The notes beneath the pieces were generated by a model. It did no database searches. It was not told where the DNA came from and saw only the letters and a list, made by a program, of their open reading frames with translations. A program made the translations under genes and the position numbers. A DNA stretch of 64,000 nt from an uncultured bacterium (lineage in GTDB: Bacteria > Cyanobacteriota > Vampirovibrionia > Gastranaerophilales > Gastranaerophilaceae): NCBI GenBank assembly GCA_902791985.1, contig CADAYD010000008.1, forward strand, positions 1 through 64,000. Direction: 5' to 3'. Positions 5,164 to 10,893 of the stretch are shown here, piece after piece. The first letter of the stretch is position 1; the number at the start of each line of letters is the position of its first letter.

Positions 5164-5236
5164 GCGCTTGTAGCTCAGCAGGTAGAGCACTCCCCTTTTA
5201 AGGGATAGGTCGCGCGTTCGAATCGCGCCAAGCGCA
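5164..5236 (+). tRNA. tRNA-Lys(UUU), att site of the integrated element
   Basis: A full cloverleaf can be drawn. The acceptor stem is GCGCTTG/CAAGCGC, the D arm GCTC/GAGC, and the T stem GCGCG/CGCGC around TTCGAAT. The anticodon loop is CTTTTAA with anticodon TTT. The anticodon stem has four good pairs plus a C-U mismatch at 27-43. Discriminator is A and CCA is not encoded. The portion from the anticodon loop to the 3' end (5195-5236) is repeated exactly at 10101-10142. Confidence 0.95.
5195..5236 (+). repeat. attL core (42-bp direct repeat)
   Basis: Identical to 10101-10142. Identity begins at the first base of the tRNA anticodon loop and ends at the discriminator base. Crossover occurred somewhere within these 42 bp, leaving an intact tRNA on this side. 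Confidence 0.93.
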
Positions 5237-5256
5237 TTTTTTAATGACAAATAATA

Positions 5257-5287
5257 GCAAGGGTTTTAAGCCCTTGCGTTTTTATTT
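5257..5287 (+). terminator. Element-borne terminator for tRNA-Lys
   Basis: GCAAGGG pairs with CCCTTGC across a 7-nt loop, followed by GTTTTTATTT. It lies about 20 bp past the tRNA, inside the element. It apparently replaces the host terminator that insertion moved to 10142-10176. Confidence 0.8.
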
Positions 5288-5309
5288 CTGAAAAATAATT
5301 TTTATAAAA

Positions 5310-5360
5310 TGTCGTAATAATGTCGTAGCAATTTATTAAAAATTATAAAAAATTACGACA
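5310..5360. promoter_or_regulatory. Putative integrase arm-type sites, left end
   Basis: TGTCGTA occurs at 5310-5316 and 5321-5327 in direct orientation, and TTACGACA at 5353-5360 in inverse orientation. The same heptamer occurs three times beside the integrase at the other end. This arrangement is typical of arm sites of lambda-type tyrosine recombinases; binding here is inferred. Confidence 0.6.
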
Positions 5361-5363
5361 AAA

Positions 5364-5798
5364 TTATTTTAAATTATCTTTAAAATACCCCTCTAAAAAT
5401 TCGTTTGTGTCGTTTTCATAAGTCGATTGAAAAGCCATTTCCGACTTTTTAAATATATTTTTACCAAGTGCAAACCCTTTTTCTTTGCCGTCGCGTCCTT
5501 TTATAATATGCCCGTTCTCTATTAAATGGTTATGCGGGGCAATCTTTGAATCTGAATAAACCTTTGTATATACGTCTTTTGATTTCTTGTTATAACGCGT
5601 TTTCCCCGCTTTTAAACTCTTGTAATAATTACCCGTTTTCTTGCCTACGTTCGTTTTTGCGGTCTTTTTTACTTCTTTAAGAAATTTGCGCTTTTCTTTA
5701 TCAAGAAATTTTTGCGCGTCTTTTGGTAAATTCTCGACAATTTCCCCCATAAGTTCCTTTTTAAATTCTGTTAATTCTGAAAAATCGAATCCGTCCAT
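5364..5798 (-). CDS. HK97 gp10-like phage head-tail/tail-completion protein
   Basis: This 144-residue protein has a charged helical N-terminus (about 15-50). A TGNYYKSLKAG stretch (about 55-65) resembles the family's TGxLRxSI. APHNHLIENGHII (about 92-104) resembles the conserved aromatic/His, V/I-E-x-G segment, and a C-terminal helical region follows. In phages such proteins complete the head-tail connection. Here it is the last gene of the minus-strand cluster, 1 bp after its neighbour, with no other virion gene beside it. In a satellite it could modify a helper's virion, but that is speculation. Confidence 0.6.
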   Translation of the reverse strand: MDGFDFSELTEFKKELMGEIVENLPKDAQKFLDKEKRKFLKEVKKTAKTNVGKKTGNYYKSLKAGKTRYNKKSKDVYTKVYSDSKIAPHNHLIENGHIIKGRDGKEKGFALGKNIFKKSEMAFQSTYENDTNEFLEGYFKDNLK

Positions 5799-5799
5799 T

Positions 5800-6114
5800 T
5801 TAATTACTCCTTATCTTTTCGTTTATTTCATATTTGTTTAAATCGTCTTGAAATTCTGATAAATTCTTAAATATAAGCGCGCGCCATTCTAATAATTCGG
5901 GGTTGTTTTCGTTCCTACGATAGTAATTTCTTAAAAGTTTTTGCCCCGTTAATAACGCAATTAAGCCGATTGTAAAATCGTTATACTTGTAATATCGAAT
6001 ACGCAACGCCCGCGCAAGTCTTTGAATCTTATAATAAACGTTCCTATCTGTTTTTGAATGTTCATTCATATAAATTTTATTCTTTTTTTTATTTATTTTT
6101 GAATATTCTTGCAT
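5800..6114 (-). CDS. Hypothetical protein of the integrated element
   Basis: This 104-residue protein is very basic and helical, with many Arg, Lys, Tyr and Asn. It has no recognised motif. The ATG at 6114 is preceded by AAAGGA at good spacing. It ends 1 bp before the gp10-like gene, so the two are very likely translationally coupled and may act together. Candidates include a small head-tail or DNA-binding protein; nothing in the sequence decides between them. Confidence 0.55.
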   Translation of the reverse strand: MQEYSKINKKKNKIYMNEHSKTDRNVYYKIQRLARALRIRYYKYNDFTIGLIALLTGQKLLRNYYRRNENNPELLEWRALIFKNLSEFQDDLNKYEINEKIRSN

Positions 6115-6652
6115 TTTGTTTCCTTTACGCCTTTTTACTGATATTTATTGATTTATAAACAAATATTTTATATTTCCCCCTTATACCACACCCCCCATGC
6201 AAATTGATTTATGTTATATGTATCTGGGCATGCGGTCTTTTGGGGTAGCCCCTTATTTTTTAATATGGGGGGGATATGTTCGGGAAATATGACGCGCCAT
6301 AATCCCCGTTAAGCCCTGTTAATTTATTTTTATATGTGTTCATACCCGCAAATATAAAATAATGTCGCATTGTTTTACTCACCTATTTATTTTTGAAAAT
6401 TATTTTCTTTTTGATAACGAAAATTTTTGAAAAAAATTTTCAACAATATTTCTTTTATATTCTTTATTCTTATTATTCTTTATTATTCTTTATAGTTGTT
6501 ACTCATAAGTTGATTAAAAGTTGATGTATAAGTTATTCATAAGTTGATTTTATTTTTCTTATATGTCTTTTATCCTTATGTACTGCGCAATATAACAAAT
6601 AACAAATTAAGTTGATTTTTAGAAATTTTGATTTTTTATTAAGTTGATTTTA
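6115..6652. other. Long non-coding region of the element with iterons
   Basis: 538 bp without a convincing gene on either strand. It contains C-rich and G-rich patches (around 6175-6290), a short GGGG-TAG-CCCC hairpin followed by T's on the plus strand (about 6243-6260), and long AT-rich tracts. The right side carries the iteron-like array. This is a good candidate for a replication origin. Confidence 0.6.
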
Positions 6653-6654
6653 TT
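6504..6654. repeat. Iteron-like direct repeat array (putative replication origin)
   Basis: Six copies of a core close to TAAGTTGATT occur near 6504-6515, 6517-6525, 6526-6537 (AAGTTATT variant), 6538-6550, 6606-6620 and 6638-6654. All are in the same orientation. The last overlaps the stop codon of the adjacent replication-type gene. Directly repeated, AT-rich motifs next to an initiator-like gene are typical of iteron origins of plasmids and phages. Confidence 0.65.
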
Positions 6655-7018
6655 AAATTTCGTCGTCGTCATTCTGATAATTGCACCAATTCAATATTGT
6701 TACCTTTACCCCGTCCGTTCGGGACTTGCCCGCGTCCCACGTCAAGAAATCTAATTTCTTAAATCGGATAAAAGCGTCGCGCACCATTTGCACCGTTATA
6801 CCTTTTCCGCAATCCTTTGCAATATTTCCATAACTACTAATAAATTCACCCGCCTTACATTGATAAGGTCGCCCGTTCCATTCCCATGCATTACTGCGCC
6901 ATTGTGCATTCGCCAATAATGCAAGCAATATGACTTTGTGTTCGGGTTTCGATTTTAGCCATATAGGATTAAGGAATAATTTGCGCCATATTTTGAAAAA
7001 GCCCTCATAACTTCGCAT
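6653..7018 (-). CDS. Phage replisome-organiser / DnaD N-terminal-like protein
   Basis: This protein is about 121 residues from ATG 7018. That start is chosen because AAAGGGG sits just upstream and overlaps the preceding stop. The sequence has the characteristic replisome-organiser N-terminal pattern: GFFKIWRKLFLNPIWL, PEHKVILLALLANAQW, GEFISSYGNIAKDCG, and MVRDAFIRFKKLDFLTW with a winged-helix layout, ending in an ILNWCNYQ strand. Phage relatives usually have a further C-terminal DnaD/DnaB-like domain that is missing here. It adjoins the iteron array and follows another HTH gene, which suggests a role in replication initiation. Confidence 0.7.
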   Translation of the reverse strand: MRSYEGFFKIWRKLFLNPIWLKSKPEHKVILLALLANAQWRSNAWEWNGRPYQCKAGEFISSYGNIAKDCGKGITVQMVRDAFIRFKKLDFLTWDAGKSRTDGVKVTILNWCNYQNDDDEI

Positions 7019-7020
7019 AT

Positions 7021-7362
7021 TTACCCCTTTATATCGTCCGTTATAATTTGGCAACAATCAGAATCATTTATATTTATTAAAATATGTTGTTGTTTCCCGA
7101 GAAATAATGTTTCCCGCGTTATGTAACATTTATCACTTAAAAAAGATAATATTTTTGTAACTGTTGTTTTTGAACACGATAAAAATTTTGCAAGGTCTAA
7201 TATATTGACTAAAATGTCGCCCGCCTTGAAATTATATCCTTTATAAATGACGTTTTTACTAAAACAATTTATCAATAAATATATGTATAATGCTTGCACC
7301 TTTGCACTATCAACACTTTTTATTTTTAGATTTGGTAATTGTTCATTGAATAATATTTTCAT
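7021..7362 (-). CDS. Winged-HTH replication/regulatory protein of the element
   Basis: This protein is about 113 residues from ATG 7362, preceded by GAGG 7 nt upstream. A longer TTG start at 7377 would contain that ribosome binding site. The central part, AGDILVNILDLAKFLSCSKTTVTKILSFLSD (about 46-78), reads as a helix-turn-helix followed by a beta wing. This is the layout seen in replication-protein N-termini and phage DnaD-like proteins. Its stop codon lies 2 bp before the start of the replisome-organiser-like gene, so the two are coupled. It may be a paralogue that recognises the iterons; that is inference. Confidence 0.55.
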   Translation of the reverse strand: MKILFNEQLPNLKIKSVDSAKVQALYIYLLINCFSKNVIYKGYNFKAGDILVNILDLAKFLSCSKTTVTKILSFLSDKCYITRETLFLGKQQHILININDSDCCQIITDDIKG

Positions 7363-7412
7363 ATTAAATCCTCTCAAAATATAATTTTGAGCAATTTATG
7401 TTATAATGTAGG

Positions 7413-7430
7413 CATAGATTTTATTATTTC
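7413..7430. promoter_or_regulatory. Element-specific 18-bp motif, copy A
   Basis: CATAGATTTTATTATTTC is identical to 8331-8348, and its first 15 bases recur at 9916-9930. Here it lies about 50 bp upstream of the HTH gene starting at 7362, next to a GCGCATTATTCATGCGC palindrome (7432-7448). Each copy sits before a minus-strand gene start. Confidence 0.6.
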
Positions 7431-7478
7431 GGCGCATGAATAATGCGCTTTTATTTTATCTATTCCCGCAAAATAACA

Positions 7479-7712
7479 CTAAACCGCTAACCTACAATTA
7501 GAATCAACCCAAGCGAAATAATCTTTTTCGCAAATATACAAGCGCCCGCCGACCTTACGCAACACTTTATCAAAGCCGTTTTTATTTCTTCGAAAAATAA
7601 TTTGTCTTAACGACTTAACTGTCGGATAAGGGTGAAATTCATTCCATTTTGAAACGGGTATAAGCCCGTAATTTTCCGCTTGTAAATTGTTGTTTTCAGT
7701 TTCTTTTTGCAT
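7479..7712 (-). CDS. Excisionase / AlpA-like HTH protein
   Basis: This 77-residue protein has a MerR-like HTH of the helix_turn_helix_17 / excisionase type. It reads LIPVSKWNEFHPYPTVKSLR (about 17-36), then a recognition segment rich in Arg/Lys, and VGGRLYICEKDYFAWVD (about 53-69), the usual wing and final helix. Such proteins bind near att sites to favour excision or act as small activators. It stands alone with AAGGAG upstream of its ATG, between the LuxR-type gene and the replication genes. It is probably the directionality factor for the integrase. Confidence 0.75.
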   Translation of the reverse strand: MQKETENNNLQAENYGLIPVSKWNEFHPYPTVKSLRQIIFRRNKNGFDKVLRKVGGRLYICEKDYFAWVDSNCRLAV

Positions 7713-7820
7713 TTTTCTTACTCCTTTATATTTGTTTTAATTTGTTTGTAACAATTACAAATATATAAGGATTAGAAATTTTATAATATCCGTACTTTTA
7801 TATAAAAAAATACGTATATT

Positions 7821-8333
7821 TTAACTACTAACAATTTCATATAAAAATTTTAGTAATTTTTCGGGTTTTCTTAATATAGTATCCCCTTTTTTATTTTCAA
7901 ATTCTTTAAATTGTTTGCTATTCCTTATAGTATCTGCAAACATTTTATCCTCACTTATTTTAATAAGCATATTTTTAAAATGCGTTTCAACTGTTCTTTT
8001 TGATATAAACAATTTATCCGCAATATATTGCGCCGTATGTCCTTTTATAAGCAATTTAAAAATTTCGGTTTCCTTTTTTGTGAAATTGCCCGTAATAATA
8101 GAACATGCAACAACCTTTTTTTCTTTTTCGACATTAAAATTACAAATAGTTTGTTTTATAGCGTCAACTTCACGAATAGCGATATATAGTTCATTTATAT
8201 TAAAATTATCATCTTTTGGCGCATTTTCATAAGATTGCACAATTTCGCTTTCAAGTTCGGATAAATCACTTATAAATTTATCTTTTAAGTGTTTAAATTT
8301 TATTCTTAAATCTGCGCCCCGTTTATATTTCAT
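7821..8333 (-). CDS. LuxR-type HTH regulator of the element
   Basis: This 170-residue protein has a coiled helical N-terminal half (about 1-75) without a recognised sensor domain. A clear LuxR/GerE HTH follows (about 85-125), with FTKKETEIFKLL, IADKLFISKRTVETHFKNML. A short helical C-terminus follows. LuxR-type regulators are unusual in very small integrative elements, which normally carry CI- or Cro-like repressors. The ATG lies inside copy B of the 18-bp motif, so the gene may be autoregulated. It is a candidate sensor that triggers excision or replication. Confidence 0.75.
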   Translation of the reverse strand: MKYKRGADLRIKFKHLKDKFISDLSELESEIVQSYENAPKDDNFNINELYIAIREVDAIKQTICNFNVEKEKKVVACSIITGNFTKKETEIFKLLIKGHTAQYIADKLFISKRTVETHFKNMLIKISEDKMFADTIRNSKQFKEFENKKGDTILRKPEKLLKFLYEIVSS

Positions 8334-8348
8334 AGATTTTATTATTTC
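8331..8348. promoter_or_regulatory. Element-specific 18-bp motif, copy B
   Basis: Same CATAGATTTTATTATTTC as copy A. On the minus strand the motif ends in the ATG of the LuxR-type gene, so it covers the leader and start codon. Confidence 0.6.
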
Positions 8349-8387
8349 CTTTAACTAACTCACTAACTAATTATTTTTTTAGTCCCC

Positions 8388-8414
8388 ATGCCTGTTATTG
8401 CTTGCATGCCTGTT
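8388..8414. promoter_or_regulatory. Direct repeat near the LuxR-type gene promoter
   Basis: CATGCCTGTT occurs at 8388-8397 and 8405-8414, 17 bp apart start to start. On the minus strand a TATAAT lies just upstream (about 8426-8431). The repeats therefore fall between promoter and gene, as operator sites would. Confidence 0.5.
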
Positions 8415-8437
8415 TCCTACTCTCAATTATAGTATAA

Positions 8438-8470
8438 GCAAACAAGGCGACCCCCCACGCCCTTGTTTGC
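8438..8470 (-). terminator. Hairpin between the integrase operon and the LuxR-type gene
   Basis: GCAAACAAGG pairs perfectly with CCTTGTTTGC across a C-rich 13-nt loop. It lies 30 bp past the stop of the 82-residue gene. The T-run is poor on the minus strand, so termination may be weak. Confidence 0.45.
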
Positions 8471-8501
8471 GTCATTTTTCTAATCGCAAAATGACAAAAG
8501 T

Positions 8502-8750
8502 TTAAGTCGATTGCTGGCATGGTAACAATTTGTCAATTTCGGATTGTATTAAATTCGCTTTTTCGTCAATAATATGCGCAAAAAATACCGTTCTATATGC
8601 TTTTTCTTTTAATAACATAACGTCTGTATCAGTTTTCATGTCTTGCACTTCGTTAATAAAATTTGTTATTTCATAATTCAACGCTTTAATTGATTCAAGA
8701 TAGCCGTTAAAATCCTCTAATTTGTTTTCATACATTTCTACATCAATCAT
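8502..8750 (-). CDS. Small helical hypothetical protein of the element
   Basis: This 82-residue acidic, almost entirely helical protein (for example MYENKLEDFNGYLESIKALN) has probable coiled-coil character and no recognised motif. It starts 23 bp after the integrase stop with AAAGGAG upstream, so it is co-transcribed with the integrase. Small acidic helical proteins in such positions sometimes antagonise or modulate neighbouring enzymes, but I cannot assign a role. Confidence 0.55.
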   Translation of the reverse strand: MIDVEMYENKLEDFNGYLESIKALNYEITNFINEVQDMKTDTDVMLLKEKAYRTVFFAHIIDEKANLIQSEIDKLLPCQQST

Positions 8751-8773
8751 TTTAAATACTCCTTTTTACTTTG

Positions 8774-9907
8774 TTATTGCGCTTTTAAAAATTCCGTCAA
8801 TATTTTGTCGCCTACTTGATTTATTGCGGGTCTTAAACTGTCGTCCCTTAAATGTGAATATCTATTAGTCATTGCGGAACTTTTATGTCCTAAAATCTTT
8901 TGCGTTATAGGTTGCGAAATTCCGTCCATTGCTTGCCAACTTGCGCCCGTATGCCTTAAATCGTGAAATCTGAAATCTTTAATCCCGCATTGTTTAACAA
9001 TTTTCGGGAATAATTTGCCTATTAAACTTTCTTTTGGTTTTCCGTCGGGCGTTTTAAATATATAGTCATTGTTTAAACTACGGATTTTATTTTGCGCCTT
9101 AAATGTAACAAGTTCCTTATATACAAAATCGTGCATAGGTGTCCCCCTGTCCGTTCCGTTTTTGGTATCAAGGAAATAAAACATTTTGTTTTCAAGGTCA
9201 ACCGTTCCCCAAGTTAAATGCAATATTTCACCTTTTCTTGCGTCTGCTAAAAGTGCAATCAATACGCATAAATACAATTCATAATCGGCGTTTTTGCAAG
9301 CATTCAATAATTTTGCAATTTCTTTTAATTCAAGATAGCGTTTTCGGGCGTTCTTTTCTGATAATTTCTTTACTTTTGCCATAGGGTTTAAATCTAAAAT
9401 ATCAAGGTCGTTTACGCAATAGGCAAAAACTACGCGCATATAAGTCATATATTTGTTTATTGTTGCGGGCGATAATGTATTTTCTGACATTCGCGGGGCA
9501 AGATGTTTCAATTCTTTGTTACGAATCGGGATTTCTTTACGCTTGCGCGCAAGTTTATTTCGACAATCGACAAGCGTTTCGGTCGTCAAACTTGATAAAT
9601 AATATTCGCCGATTTCGTTTTTGTACCAATCAAGCACCATTTTAAACTCTGTTTGTGCTTTTGGTTTACGTTTTGGCAATTCATTTTCTATAAATTTGTC
9701 GATAATTTCGCCAACTGTATATTTTTGCGCTTTACGTTTAGGGAAATTTATATTTTCGCGGATTTCGGTTTCGGTTTTATTTGCCCATTCTTTTGCGTCC
9801 GTTTTAAGTTTAAATGTTTTTGTTACGGGTTTATAGCCCTTAATTCTTATGCTTGCCGTATAACTCGGCTCGCCGTTCTTTTTAATGCGCTTTTTGATTT
9901 CTGCCAT
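8774..9907 (-). CDS. int: Tyrosine recombinase integrase
   Basis: This 377-residue phage-type integrase has an N-terminal arm-binding domain (about 1-60, with YTASIRIKGYKPVTKTF), a SAM-like core-binding domain (about 62-165) and a catalytic domain (about 185-370). The active-site residues are all visible: R224 (ADARKGE), K249, H315 and R318 (HDLRHT), H341 (LGHKS) and Y350 (TNRYSHL). It should catalyse recombination at the tRNA-Lys site that brackets the element. The ATG at 9907 has GAGG upstream. It reads away from the adjacent right att end, and arm-type repeats lie immediately upstream. Confidence 0.95.
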   Translation of the reverse strand: MAEIKKRIKKNGEPSYTASIRIKGYKPVTKTFKLKTDAKEWANKTETEIRENINFPKRKAQKYTVGEIIDKFIENELPKRKPKAQTEFKMVLDWYKNEIGEYYLSSLTTETLVDCRNKLARKRKEIPIRNKELKHLAPRMSENTLSPATINKYMTYMRVVFAYCVNDLDILDLNPMAKVKKLSEKNARKRYLELKEIAKLLNACKNADYELYLCVLIALLADARKGEILHLTWGTVDLENKMFYFLDTKNGTDRGTPMHDFVYKELVTFKAQNKIRSLNNDYIFKTPDGKPKESLIGKLFPKIVKQCGIKDFRFHDLRHTGASWQAMDGISQPITQKILGHKSSAMTNRYSHLRDDSLRPAINQVGDKILTEFLKAQ

Positions 9908-9915
9908 ATTTACCT

Positions 9916-9930
9916 CATAGATTTTATTAT
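9916..9930. promoter_or_regulatory. Element-specific motif, copy C (upstream of integrase)
   Basis: CATAGATTTTATTAT matches the first 15 bases of copies A and B. On the minus strand the sequence reads TATAATAAAATCTATG just before the integrase ribosome binding site. It could itself supply a -10 box. Confidence 0.55.
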
Positions 9931-9945
9931 AAAAAAATAATTTTT

Positions 9946-9971
9946 TGTCGTAATGTCGTAAAAATGTCGTA
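9946..9971. promoter_or_regulatory. Putative integrase arm-type sites, right end
   Basis: TGTCGTA occurs three times in direct orientation at 9946-9952, 9954-9960 and 9965-9971. It lies upstream of int and 130 bp from the right core repeat. The last two copies are spaced 11 bp, like the two copies at the left end. Confidence 0.6.
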
Positions 9972-10100
9972 GCAAATATTTAAAATTTACGAAAAATTAT
10001 AAAACAATATTATCAAATAAAAAATATAAAGTCAATAATAATGCGCATTTTAAGATTTTTAATTTTTTATGATTTTTCTACGTTTTTATATTCCTACCCA

Positions 10101-10142
10101 CTTTTAAGGGATAGGTCGCGCGTTCGAATCGCGCCAAGCGCA
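10101..10142 (+). repeat. attR core (42-bp direct repeat)
   Basis: Exact copy of tRNA-Lys from the anticodon loop to the discriminator base, without a 5' half. It is directly followed by the host's original tRNA terminator. This marks the right end of the element. Confidence 0.93.
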
Positions 10143-10176
10143 AAATAAAAGAGGCTGTAACGGCCTCTTTTATTTT
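10142..10176 (+). terminator. Displaced original tRNA-Lys terminator
   Basis: AAAATAAAAGAGGC pairs perfectly with GCCTCTTTTATTTT around TGTAACG, an ideal bidirectional-type terminator. It begins at the base following the att repeat, where the tRNA-Lys terminator would have been before insertion. Confidence 0.8.
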
Positions 10177-10335
10177 GTTGTATAGCCAAGATTTGAACGC
10201 ATTTTAGCGTTCGAGCGAAATGCGAGCAGAGGCTGAAACAAACGGGTTAGCTTGTGATAAACAAGACAAGCAGGTTTGCGGAATGCCGTTTATTGCGAAC
10301 ATTTCAAGACAATTGCGCCAAGCGCAAAATAAGAA
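10177..10335. other. Non-coding remnant between attR and the HTH gene
   Basis: Contains a GAACGC/GCGTTC hairpin (about 10196-10213) and an 11-base word, GCGAGCAGAGG, that recurs near 58846. At 10315-10332 there is an 18-base copy of the tRNA 3' end plus its downstream flank (GCGCCAAGCGCAAAATAA), also found at 10131-10148. It looks like the scar of an older event at the same site. Confidence 0.5.
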
Positions 10336-10893
10336 CTAAATTTCAATATACTTTTTGGCACATTCAAGCATTGAGTTGACCAGCGCTGAATTCACGCTTA
10401 TATTCATCCCGTTTATCTCTAGCACCTGTTTCATTCGTTCTTCCCATAGGTTATAAATGTCAGACTTATCTAAATCCAAAGTTTCCCCTATCATTAAAAT
10501 CTCTTTAAAATCAATCGGCAGCGGGTATGCTCCTCTTAACATATCAACAATATGCACCCGTTTTTTACGCGGAAATGATTTCAAAAAATTTACCATACTC
10601 ATCTTTTTTTGTTTGAGTACGCTTTTTAAAAATTCTATAGATTCATCCTGCAATATTGGTTCTTGGGGAATTTTGTATTCCTCAAATTCTTCCGGTTTAA
10701 TATCCATTACTGTTGCTATACGCTCCAATGTAGTCGAACGAGTCGAAAACGGGATTGTTTCGTCAATTAAGTTGTAAACATAAGAAAGCGTAACCCCTAT
10801 CATTTCAGCAAAATCTTTTTTATGCAACGAGTTTTTTTCTAAAAAATCTATAACTTTTTGAGAACTTTTTCCTTTTGTTGTTGAACTTTTCAT
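10336..10893 (-). CDS. XRE-type HTH transcriptional regulator
   Basis: This 185-residue protein has an N-terminal Cro/CI-type HTH (about 12-66, with KKDFAEMIGVTLSYVYNLID followed by a helix ending TVMDIKPEEFEEY). A second helical half (about 80-185) weakly resembles another HTH repeat (SMVNFLKSFPRKKRVHIVDML). There is no catalytic motif. It lies just outside the att-bounded element, with its stop 3 bp after the 18-base tRNA-like scar. It may therefore belong to an older integrated element or be chromosomal. AAGGAG precedes the ATG. Confidence 0.7.
   Translation of the reverse strand: MKSSTTKGKSSQKVIDFLEKNSLHKKDFAEMIGVTLSYVYNLIDETIPFSTRSTTLERIATVMDIKPEEFEEYKIPQEPILQDESIEFLKSVLKQKKMSMVNFLKSFPRKKRVHIVDMLRGAYPLPIDFKEILMIGETLDLDKSDIYNLWEERMKQVLEINGMNISVNSALVNSMLECAKKYIEI

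Follow-up and report, generated by a model that had tools for sequence, protein, structure and literature searches.

A stretch of 64,000 nucleotides from an uncultured gut bacterium of the Gastranaerophilaceae, related to cyanobacteria (contig CADAYD010000008.1, assembly GCA_902791985.1; here called the window) carries, at positions 5195-10142, a small integrated element that we named W. W is probably, though by no means certainly, a minimal phage satellite, which would excise and replicate itself, hijack the particles of a helper myophage and add its own neck protein. The sequence itself places W in a tRNA-Lys gene and gives it an integrase (Int) with paired arm-type boxes, a gene backbone shared with relatives, a cluster of iterons and an intact neck gene of the HK97 gp10 (Neck1, Ne1) family; dependence on a helper and incorporation of the neck protein are what we infer. 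The satellite reading is supported by the boundaries of W and the corresponding empty sites, by the polarity of its element family and by the lack of genes for the large terminase subunit (TerL) or capsid inside the elements. The proposed neck step draws on a full-length gp10 with a conserved motif and the predicted HK97 gp10 fold, the homologues of which lie in head-neck-tail modules.

Boundaries and insertion site of W

W comprises 4,948 bp with a GC content of 31%, about 73% of it coding. A sequence-only reading of the window had described a 42-bp repeat bracketing 4.95 kb at a tRNA-Lys gene; the exact repeat and the tRNA call by ARAGORN and Rfam bear this out. Extended to 45 nt, the attachment (att) repeat contains one mismatch. 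The joined outer flanks of W align through the junction in the congeneric genome G040 (query 11-510) and in the congeners G002, G004 and G016 (over about query 1-360), hence these four genomes carry empty sites. The chromosomal terminator hairpin of the tRNA now sits behind the right repeat, and the leftmost 154 bp of W are 88% identical to the sister element L086. Six of the eight copies of TGTCGTA in the window (both strands) fall in the ends of W. Such boxes, 11 bp apart, occur at both ends of W and of L086 and beside int in L087, and they look like integrase arm sites. At the sequence level, W is a complete integrated element, site-specific for tRNA-Lys, the insertion of which restored the tRNA.

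Directly behind attR lies a repeat (window 10196-10335), the last part of which copies the tRNA-Lys 3' end (TTGCGCCAAGCGCA); similar sequence is present elsewhere in the host genome and in congeners. The RNA fold of 10140-10340, a stretch that includes the tRNA terminator hairpin, is unusually stable (z = -5.2).

W carries an intact, isolated neck gene

The gp10 product of W matched phrog_5 (tail completion or Neck1; 6e-9) and stayed just below the PF04883 cut-off (20.7 bits, cut-off 21.4). It keeps 17 of the 20 columns conserved to at least 80% among 12 (pro)phage homologues, including HxHLIExGH; phage copies scored likewise kept between 14/24 and 20/21 conserved columns. An AlphaFold model (mean predicted local distance difference test, pLDDT, 85.5) matched HK97 gp10 and type I neck proteins in a viral structure library with template modelling (TM) scores of up to 0.71, and a Foldseek search of the PDB gave no usable match. 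By sequence and predicted fold, the protein is a full-length member of the HK97 gp10/Ne1 family.

Over its full length, it is 40% identical to a homologue in Fusobacterium phage phiHugo. There the gene order is TerL, portal, protease, capsid, connector, adaptor, gp10, tail completion, sheath and tube, and Gastranaerophilales (pro)phage contigs display a similar succession of gene sizes. Among 383 genomes of the order, gp10 matches were found in 12 besides that of W. The clear homologues whose loci were read lie within head-neck-tail modules; those in L122, L128 and G149 are weak or fragmentary. Whereas gp10 in the phages read here, phiHugo among them, is part of a terL-portal-capsid-connector-tail module, gp10 of W stands alone. 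When 200 open reading frames (ORFs) from gp10-bearing (pro)phage contigs were compared with W, the only convincing match was at the gp10 gene. Pfam and PHROG scans of W found no terminase, capsid, portal or lysis gene, in agreement with the sequence-only reading, which had seen no virion, terminase or lysis gene.

Integration, regulation and replication genes

All eight genes of W lie on the minus strand (Table 1). The integrase, the LuxR-type helix-turn-helix (HTH) protein and the HK97-gp10-like protein of the sequence-only reading were recovered by Pfam and PHROG matches, gp10 remaining sub-threshold for PF04883. The same reading had named the LuxR-type regulator among the features of a satellite that would be new in this lineage if confirmed. 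The regulator is not unusual: L105, L106, L093, L098, L114 and L115 encode one in the equivalent slot. Other members have different, partly unrelated HTH proteins there, and a search over 147 genomes with the LuxR protein returned mainly generic GerE domain matches. The call of a probable excisionase (Xis) depends on its conservation and position (of the first 11 sister elements looked at, 10 have a homologue); no Pfam or PHROG family model matches it.

The two proposed replication-type proteins are DnaD-type by their PHROG matches. Both are short, however, consisting of the N-terminal winged-helix domain without the C-terminal DnaD domain, and this domain was not found when sought downstream of the short DnaD gene. 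On the phage-like contig L081, a 279-aa protein shares 58% identity in its N-terminal part with the product of 6653-7018; a winged-helix-only protein is also present in sister L097. The predicted iterons were confirmed, since four of the five window copies of AAGTTGATT cluster at 6507-6649. They lie in the one long AT-rich non-coding gap of W (6115-6652).

The orphan protein had no relatives in Pfam, PHROG or viral-contig scans, and likewise the integrase and the DnaD-type protein had none among viral contigs. A plasmid search gave no match, and a wide contig scan returned mostly proteobacterial integrases at 30-38% identity. A profile linking the 82-aa protein to its counterparts in L105 and L106 was discarded as circular, having been built from these three proteins.

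Table 1. Positions of features in W (window coordinates) and of two near-identical sister elements
Feature	Position	Strand	Evidence and remarks
tRNA-Lys(TTT), intact, integration site	5164-5236	+	ARAGORN, Rfam; last 42 nt form the left att core
attL core, 42 bp	5195-5236	+	exact repeat of 10101-10142
Hairpin and T-run brought in by W	5257-5287	+	read in sequence; likely new terminator of the restored tRNA
Left arm-type boxes TGTCGTA	5310, 5321 (11 bp apart), inverted copy 5354 (range 5310-5360)		
HK97-gp10/Neck1 (Ne1) protein, 144 aa	5364-5798	-	phrog_5, conserved columns, model, viral fold library
Orphan protein, 104 aa	5800-6114	-	directly upstream of gp10, likely one transcript
Iterons, four AAGTTGATT, candidate replication origin	6507, 6541, 6609, 6641 (6507-6649)	+	just downstream of the DnaD genes
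DnaD-type winged-helix protein	6653-7018	-	121 aa from ATG (134 aa from upstream TTG); phrog_2514 1e-10; profile with sister DnaD proteins
Second DnaD-type winged-helix protein	7021-7362	-	113 aa from ATG (118 aa from TTG at 7377); phrog_186 8e-5
Xis-like protein, 77 aa	7479-7712	-	kept in nearly all sister elements
LuxR-type (GerE) HTH regulator, 170 aa	7821-8333	-	PF00196 1.5e-12
Small, probably coiled-coil protein, 82 aa	8502-8750	-	similar-sized proteins in equivalent slot of L105, L106; homology not established
Tyrosine integrase, 377 aa	8774-9907	-	phrog_1 E=4e-70; PF00589 8e-28
Right arm-type boxes TGTCGTA	9946, 9954, 9965 (range 9946-9971)	+	
attR core, copy of tRNA-Lys 3' end	10101-10142	+	exact repeat; empty sites in congeners
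Near-identical elements with lone tape-measure gene	L080:9941-18767; L112:9065-17856		

A family of small elements in Gastranaerophilales

Strong relatives of the W integrase were found in 43 of the 383 genomes, that of W included. Elements were sought in up to 20 kb beside these relatives and delimited by the tRNA repeat. An element end had to show an exact repeat of 24 nt or more near int, so that some elements have been missed; genome bins may be incomplete, and a simple ORF caller supplied the gene predictions for the sisters. In this way 34 further elements (35 with W) of 4.65-18.7 kb were delimited, located in seven types of tRNA gene: Met, Phe, Lys(TTT), Lys(CTT), Arg, Glu and Thr. The 34 have a common polarity: Int lies close to the tRNA fragment, and the intact tRNA is at the opposite end. 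W is built alike, having a related Int near the tRNA 3' fragment, an Xis-like gene and the intact tRNA opposite. The integrase tree mostly follows tRNA type and joins W to the two remaining tRNA-Lys(TTT) elements, which come from genera other than that of W (support 98/95). Recent horizontal movement of the family is indicated by L080 and L112, elements found in two genera: over 8.9 kb they share 98.4% identity, and the alignment ends at the att sites, no more than about 40 bp from the element ends. W apparently belongs to a widespread and so far undescribed family of small mobile elements in Gastranaerophilales.

Nearest to W in architecture are L106 (4.67 kb) and L105 (5.6 kb), which share with it the order Int, small protein, LuxR-type regulator, Xis and DnaD. 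L106 additionally encodes a DnaC-type loader; this loader and the DnaD protein of L106 are related to those of the local prophage L037 (1e-84 and 3e-38). Replication genes of other sisters include DnaB, a part resembling NrS-1 polymerase and a DUF3987 primase-helicase, the latter in L096 with homologues in L100 and L110.

These relatives bear on the idea that W is a decayed prophage, left with int and xis, stubs of replication genes and a single neck gene. Such an origin would accommodate the short DnaD proteins, the single structural gene and the long AT-rich gap, but the genes of W are all intact, no remnants of other phage genes are present, and L105 and L106 have an equally compact backbone in a different tRNA. 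According to the sequence-only reading, the closest relatives of a decayed prophage should be full prophages, from which W differs by deletion. The comparison instead gave small tRNA elements as the nearest delimited integrase relatives, and across the 35 element-bearing genomes matches to TerL (phrog_2) and HK97 capsid (PF05065) fell outside the delimited elements and never inside. Decay is thus largely refuted and very improbable.

Single virion genes and defence cargo in sister elements

A lone gene for a tape-measure protein (TMP) was found in seven elements of five lineages (L069, L091, L111 and the near-copy pairs L080/L112 and L104/L109). L069 additionally encodes a small terminase subunit (TerS; phrog_57, 2e-20), and in L104 a tail-fibre-like gene lies beside the tape-measure gene. 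With gp10 of W, lone tail or neck genes are therefore known from six element lineages, all outside Vibrio. The genes preceding TMP were considered as tail-assembly chaperones; this was not confirmed, as they matched phrog_4648 (function unknown) or nothing. Small DUF5681-like proteins, possibly packaging-related, occur in L079, L088, L096, L100, L109, L110, L111 and L117, the L088 copy matching phrog_2412, of unknown function.

Defence-type cargo was found among L102, L086, L071, L088 and L069, comprising an AriA-like ATPase, type IIG and type III restriction enzymes, a protein kinase and the candidate defence system PDC-M62. Defence cargo is typical of satellites. Other sister cargo includes membrane proteins, and many sisters hold non-phage cargo only.

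The defence genes raise the alternative that W is a satellite or island in which gp10 is cargo for interference: surplus neck protein would jam the joining of heads and tails in infecting phages, as an anti-phage defence, without being part of the satellite's own particle. In W, gp10 lies at the cargo end beside the orphan, where sisters hold defence genes, and satellites do restrict their helpers via virion assembly, for example through Rta of PLE11 (PMC12987554). We nevertheless regard this role as unlikely: the residues conserved in working neck proteins are retained in W gp10, and the TMP, TerS and tail-fibre-like genes of the sisters fit particle hijacking at least as well.

Somewhat less likely again is that W is an autonomous small integrative island or integrative plasmid in which gp10 is a useless stray; its movement would then be due to transformation, to generalised transduction or to a conjugative helper that escaped notice. 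The many sisters with only membrane proteins, defence genes or other non-phage cargo are in keeping with it, as are the absence of a packaging gene from W and the restriction of gp10 to one element. Yet Pfam detected no relaxase domain in the W proteins, and random pick-up explains poorly the lone tape-measure genes of five lineages, one of them with TerS.

A proposed satellite life cycle

For the phage satellite, we propose the following course. Helper infection or induction would lead the LuxR-type regulator to switch on xis and the replication genes, whereupon Int and Xis would excise W as a circle. The DnaD-type proteins may load a host or helper helicase at the iterons, allowing the circle to replicate, and the terminase of a helper myophage would package it into helper particles. 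In the most speculative step, the W neck protein would replace or compete with helper Ne1 at the head-tail junction; by analogy with the phage-inducible chromosomal island-like element (PLE) and its own tape-measure protein, this swap could favour satellite particles or poison helper particles. A true chimeric neck, with W replacing helper Ne1 as part of a new satellite family whose members pirate single parts (neck, tape measure, tail fibre or TerS), is possible but doubtful.

The content of the sisters strengthens the satellite reading, with its lone tape-measure genes, phage-type replication genes and defence cargo and a TerS in one element. The sequence-only reading, which had likened W to satellites, has thereby gained a family context of small att-bounded relatives without TerL or capsid genes, the helper step remaining conjectural. 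Several findings weigh against a satellite. W has no terS, known pac or cos site or capsid-remodelling gene, and its self-replication is uncertain because the C-terminal domain is missing from its DnaD proteins and no DnaC, DnaB or primase is encoded. No second delimited element with gp10 was found (1/35), so gp10 could be a passenger. Finally, no prophage with an HK97-type capsid was detected in the host assembly.

A TerL-like gene of the host genome was rejected as a sign of a helper prophage, since it adjoins alaS and has no capsid genes beside it. This lone gene (phrog_2, 429 aa; G000:C14:80907-82196, L120/L121, outside the window) also lacks portal genes nearby and is usually paired with a 76-aa partner. 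Of eight relatives checked, six have copies with 57-93% identity; some of these copies have different neighbours, and the gene may be domesticated.

Comparison with known satellites

W has general traits of phage satellites: att-bounded site-specific integration, int with an Xis-like gene, and an incomplete set of virion genes. In content it resembles the phage-inducible chromosomal minimalist islands (PICMI) of Vibrionaceae, very small satellites with an integrase, an excision factor and a replication gene, and, like W, without packaging or capsid-remodelling genes (PMC10803314). However, W occupies tRNA-Lys rather than a site beside fis, has DnaD-type proteins and a LuxR-type regulator, and lacks AlpA, no W protein matching PF05930 or PF12728 (model definition, PMC10803314). 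The DUF3987/DUF5906 primase of PICMI is absent from W; sister L096 has DUF3987.

The Vibrio cholerae PLE supplies virion parts of its own (TMP, chaperone and baseplate hub) to form chimeric tails. Its TMP and baseplate hub are built into these tails, the substitution of the tape measure has been shown experimentally, and tmp deletions cut transduction by 96-99.9% (PMC12987554). The PLE tail genes tmp and tac are both missing from W, though TMP is found in sisters; the part supplied by W would be the neck (HK97 gp10), no related backbone gene was seen, and the host phylum differs. Because tmp genes in putative satellites beyond Vibrionaceae have already been reported (PMC12987554), the TMP elements found here have precedents.

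With phage-inducible chromosomal islands (PICI), including Staphylococcus aureus pathogenicity islands (SaPI), W shares att boundaries, Int and Xis and a replication module of its own, and sister L069 has terS. In contrast to these islands, W itself lacks terS, a divergent repressor module, a primase and a capsid-size gene, and all its genes lie on one strand. Capsid-forming PICIs (cf-PICI) are likewise small and att-bounded, and tmp genes are predicted in some of them (PMC12987554, Extended Data Fig. 10), but they encode their own capsid, portal and terminase or packaging machinery, none of which W has. The lack of a relaxase domain also separates W from integrative mobilizable elements (IME). 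W does not fit the definition of PICI, PICMI, PLE or cf-PICI, yet it probably works as a PICMI-sized satellite with a PLE-like supply of a virion part.

Implications

In the literature searched, no paper linked phage satellites to Melainabacteria or HK97 gp10, and no lone neck gene in a satellite was found. According to the sequence-only reading, a satellite with a LuxR regulator and a gp10-like gene would, if confirmed, be new in this lineage. Several sisters have such a regulator, and no second element with gp10 was found.

The 35 small elements delimited in the survey occupy seven types of tRNA gene, and the family has recently moved between genera; the L080/L112 pair is a good target for a transfer study. 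If these elements are satellites, few known ones would be as small as those at the lower end of the size range (4.65-4.95 kb). Whether satellites routinely swap single virion parts, the neck included, into chimeric particles is a question that can now be tested.

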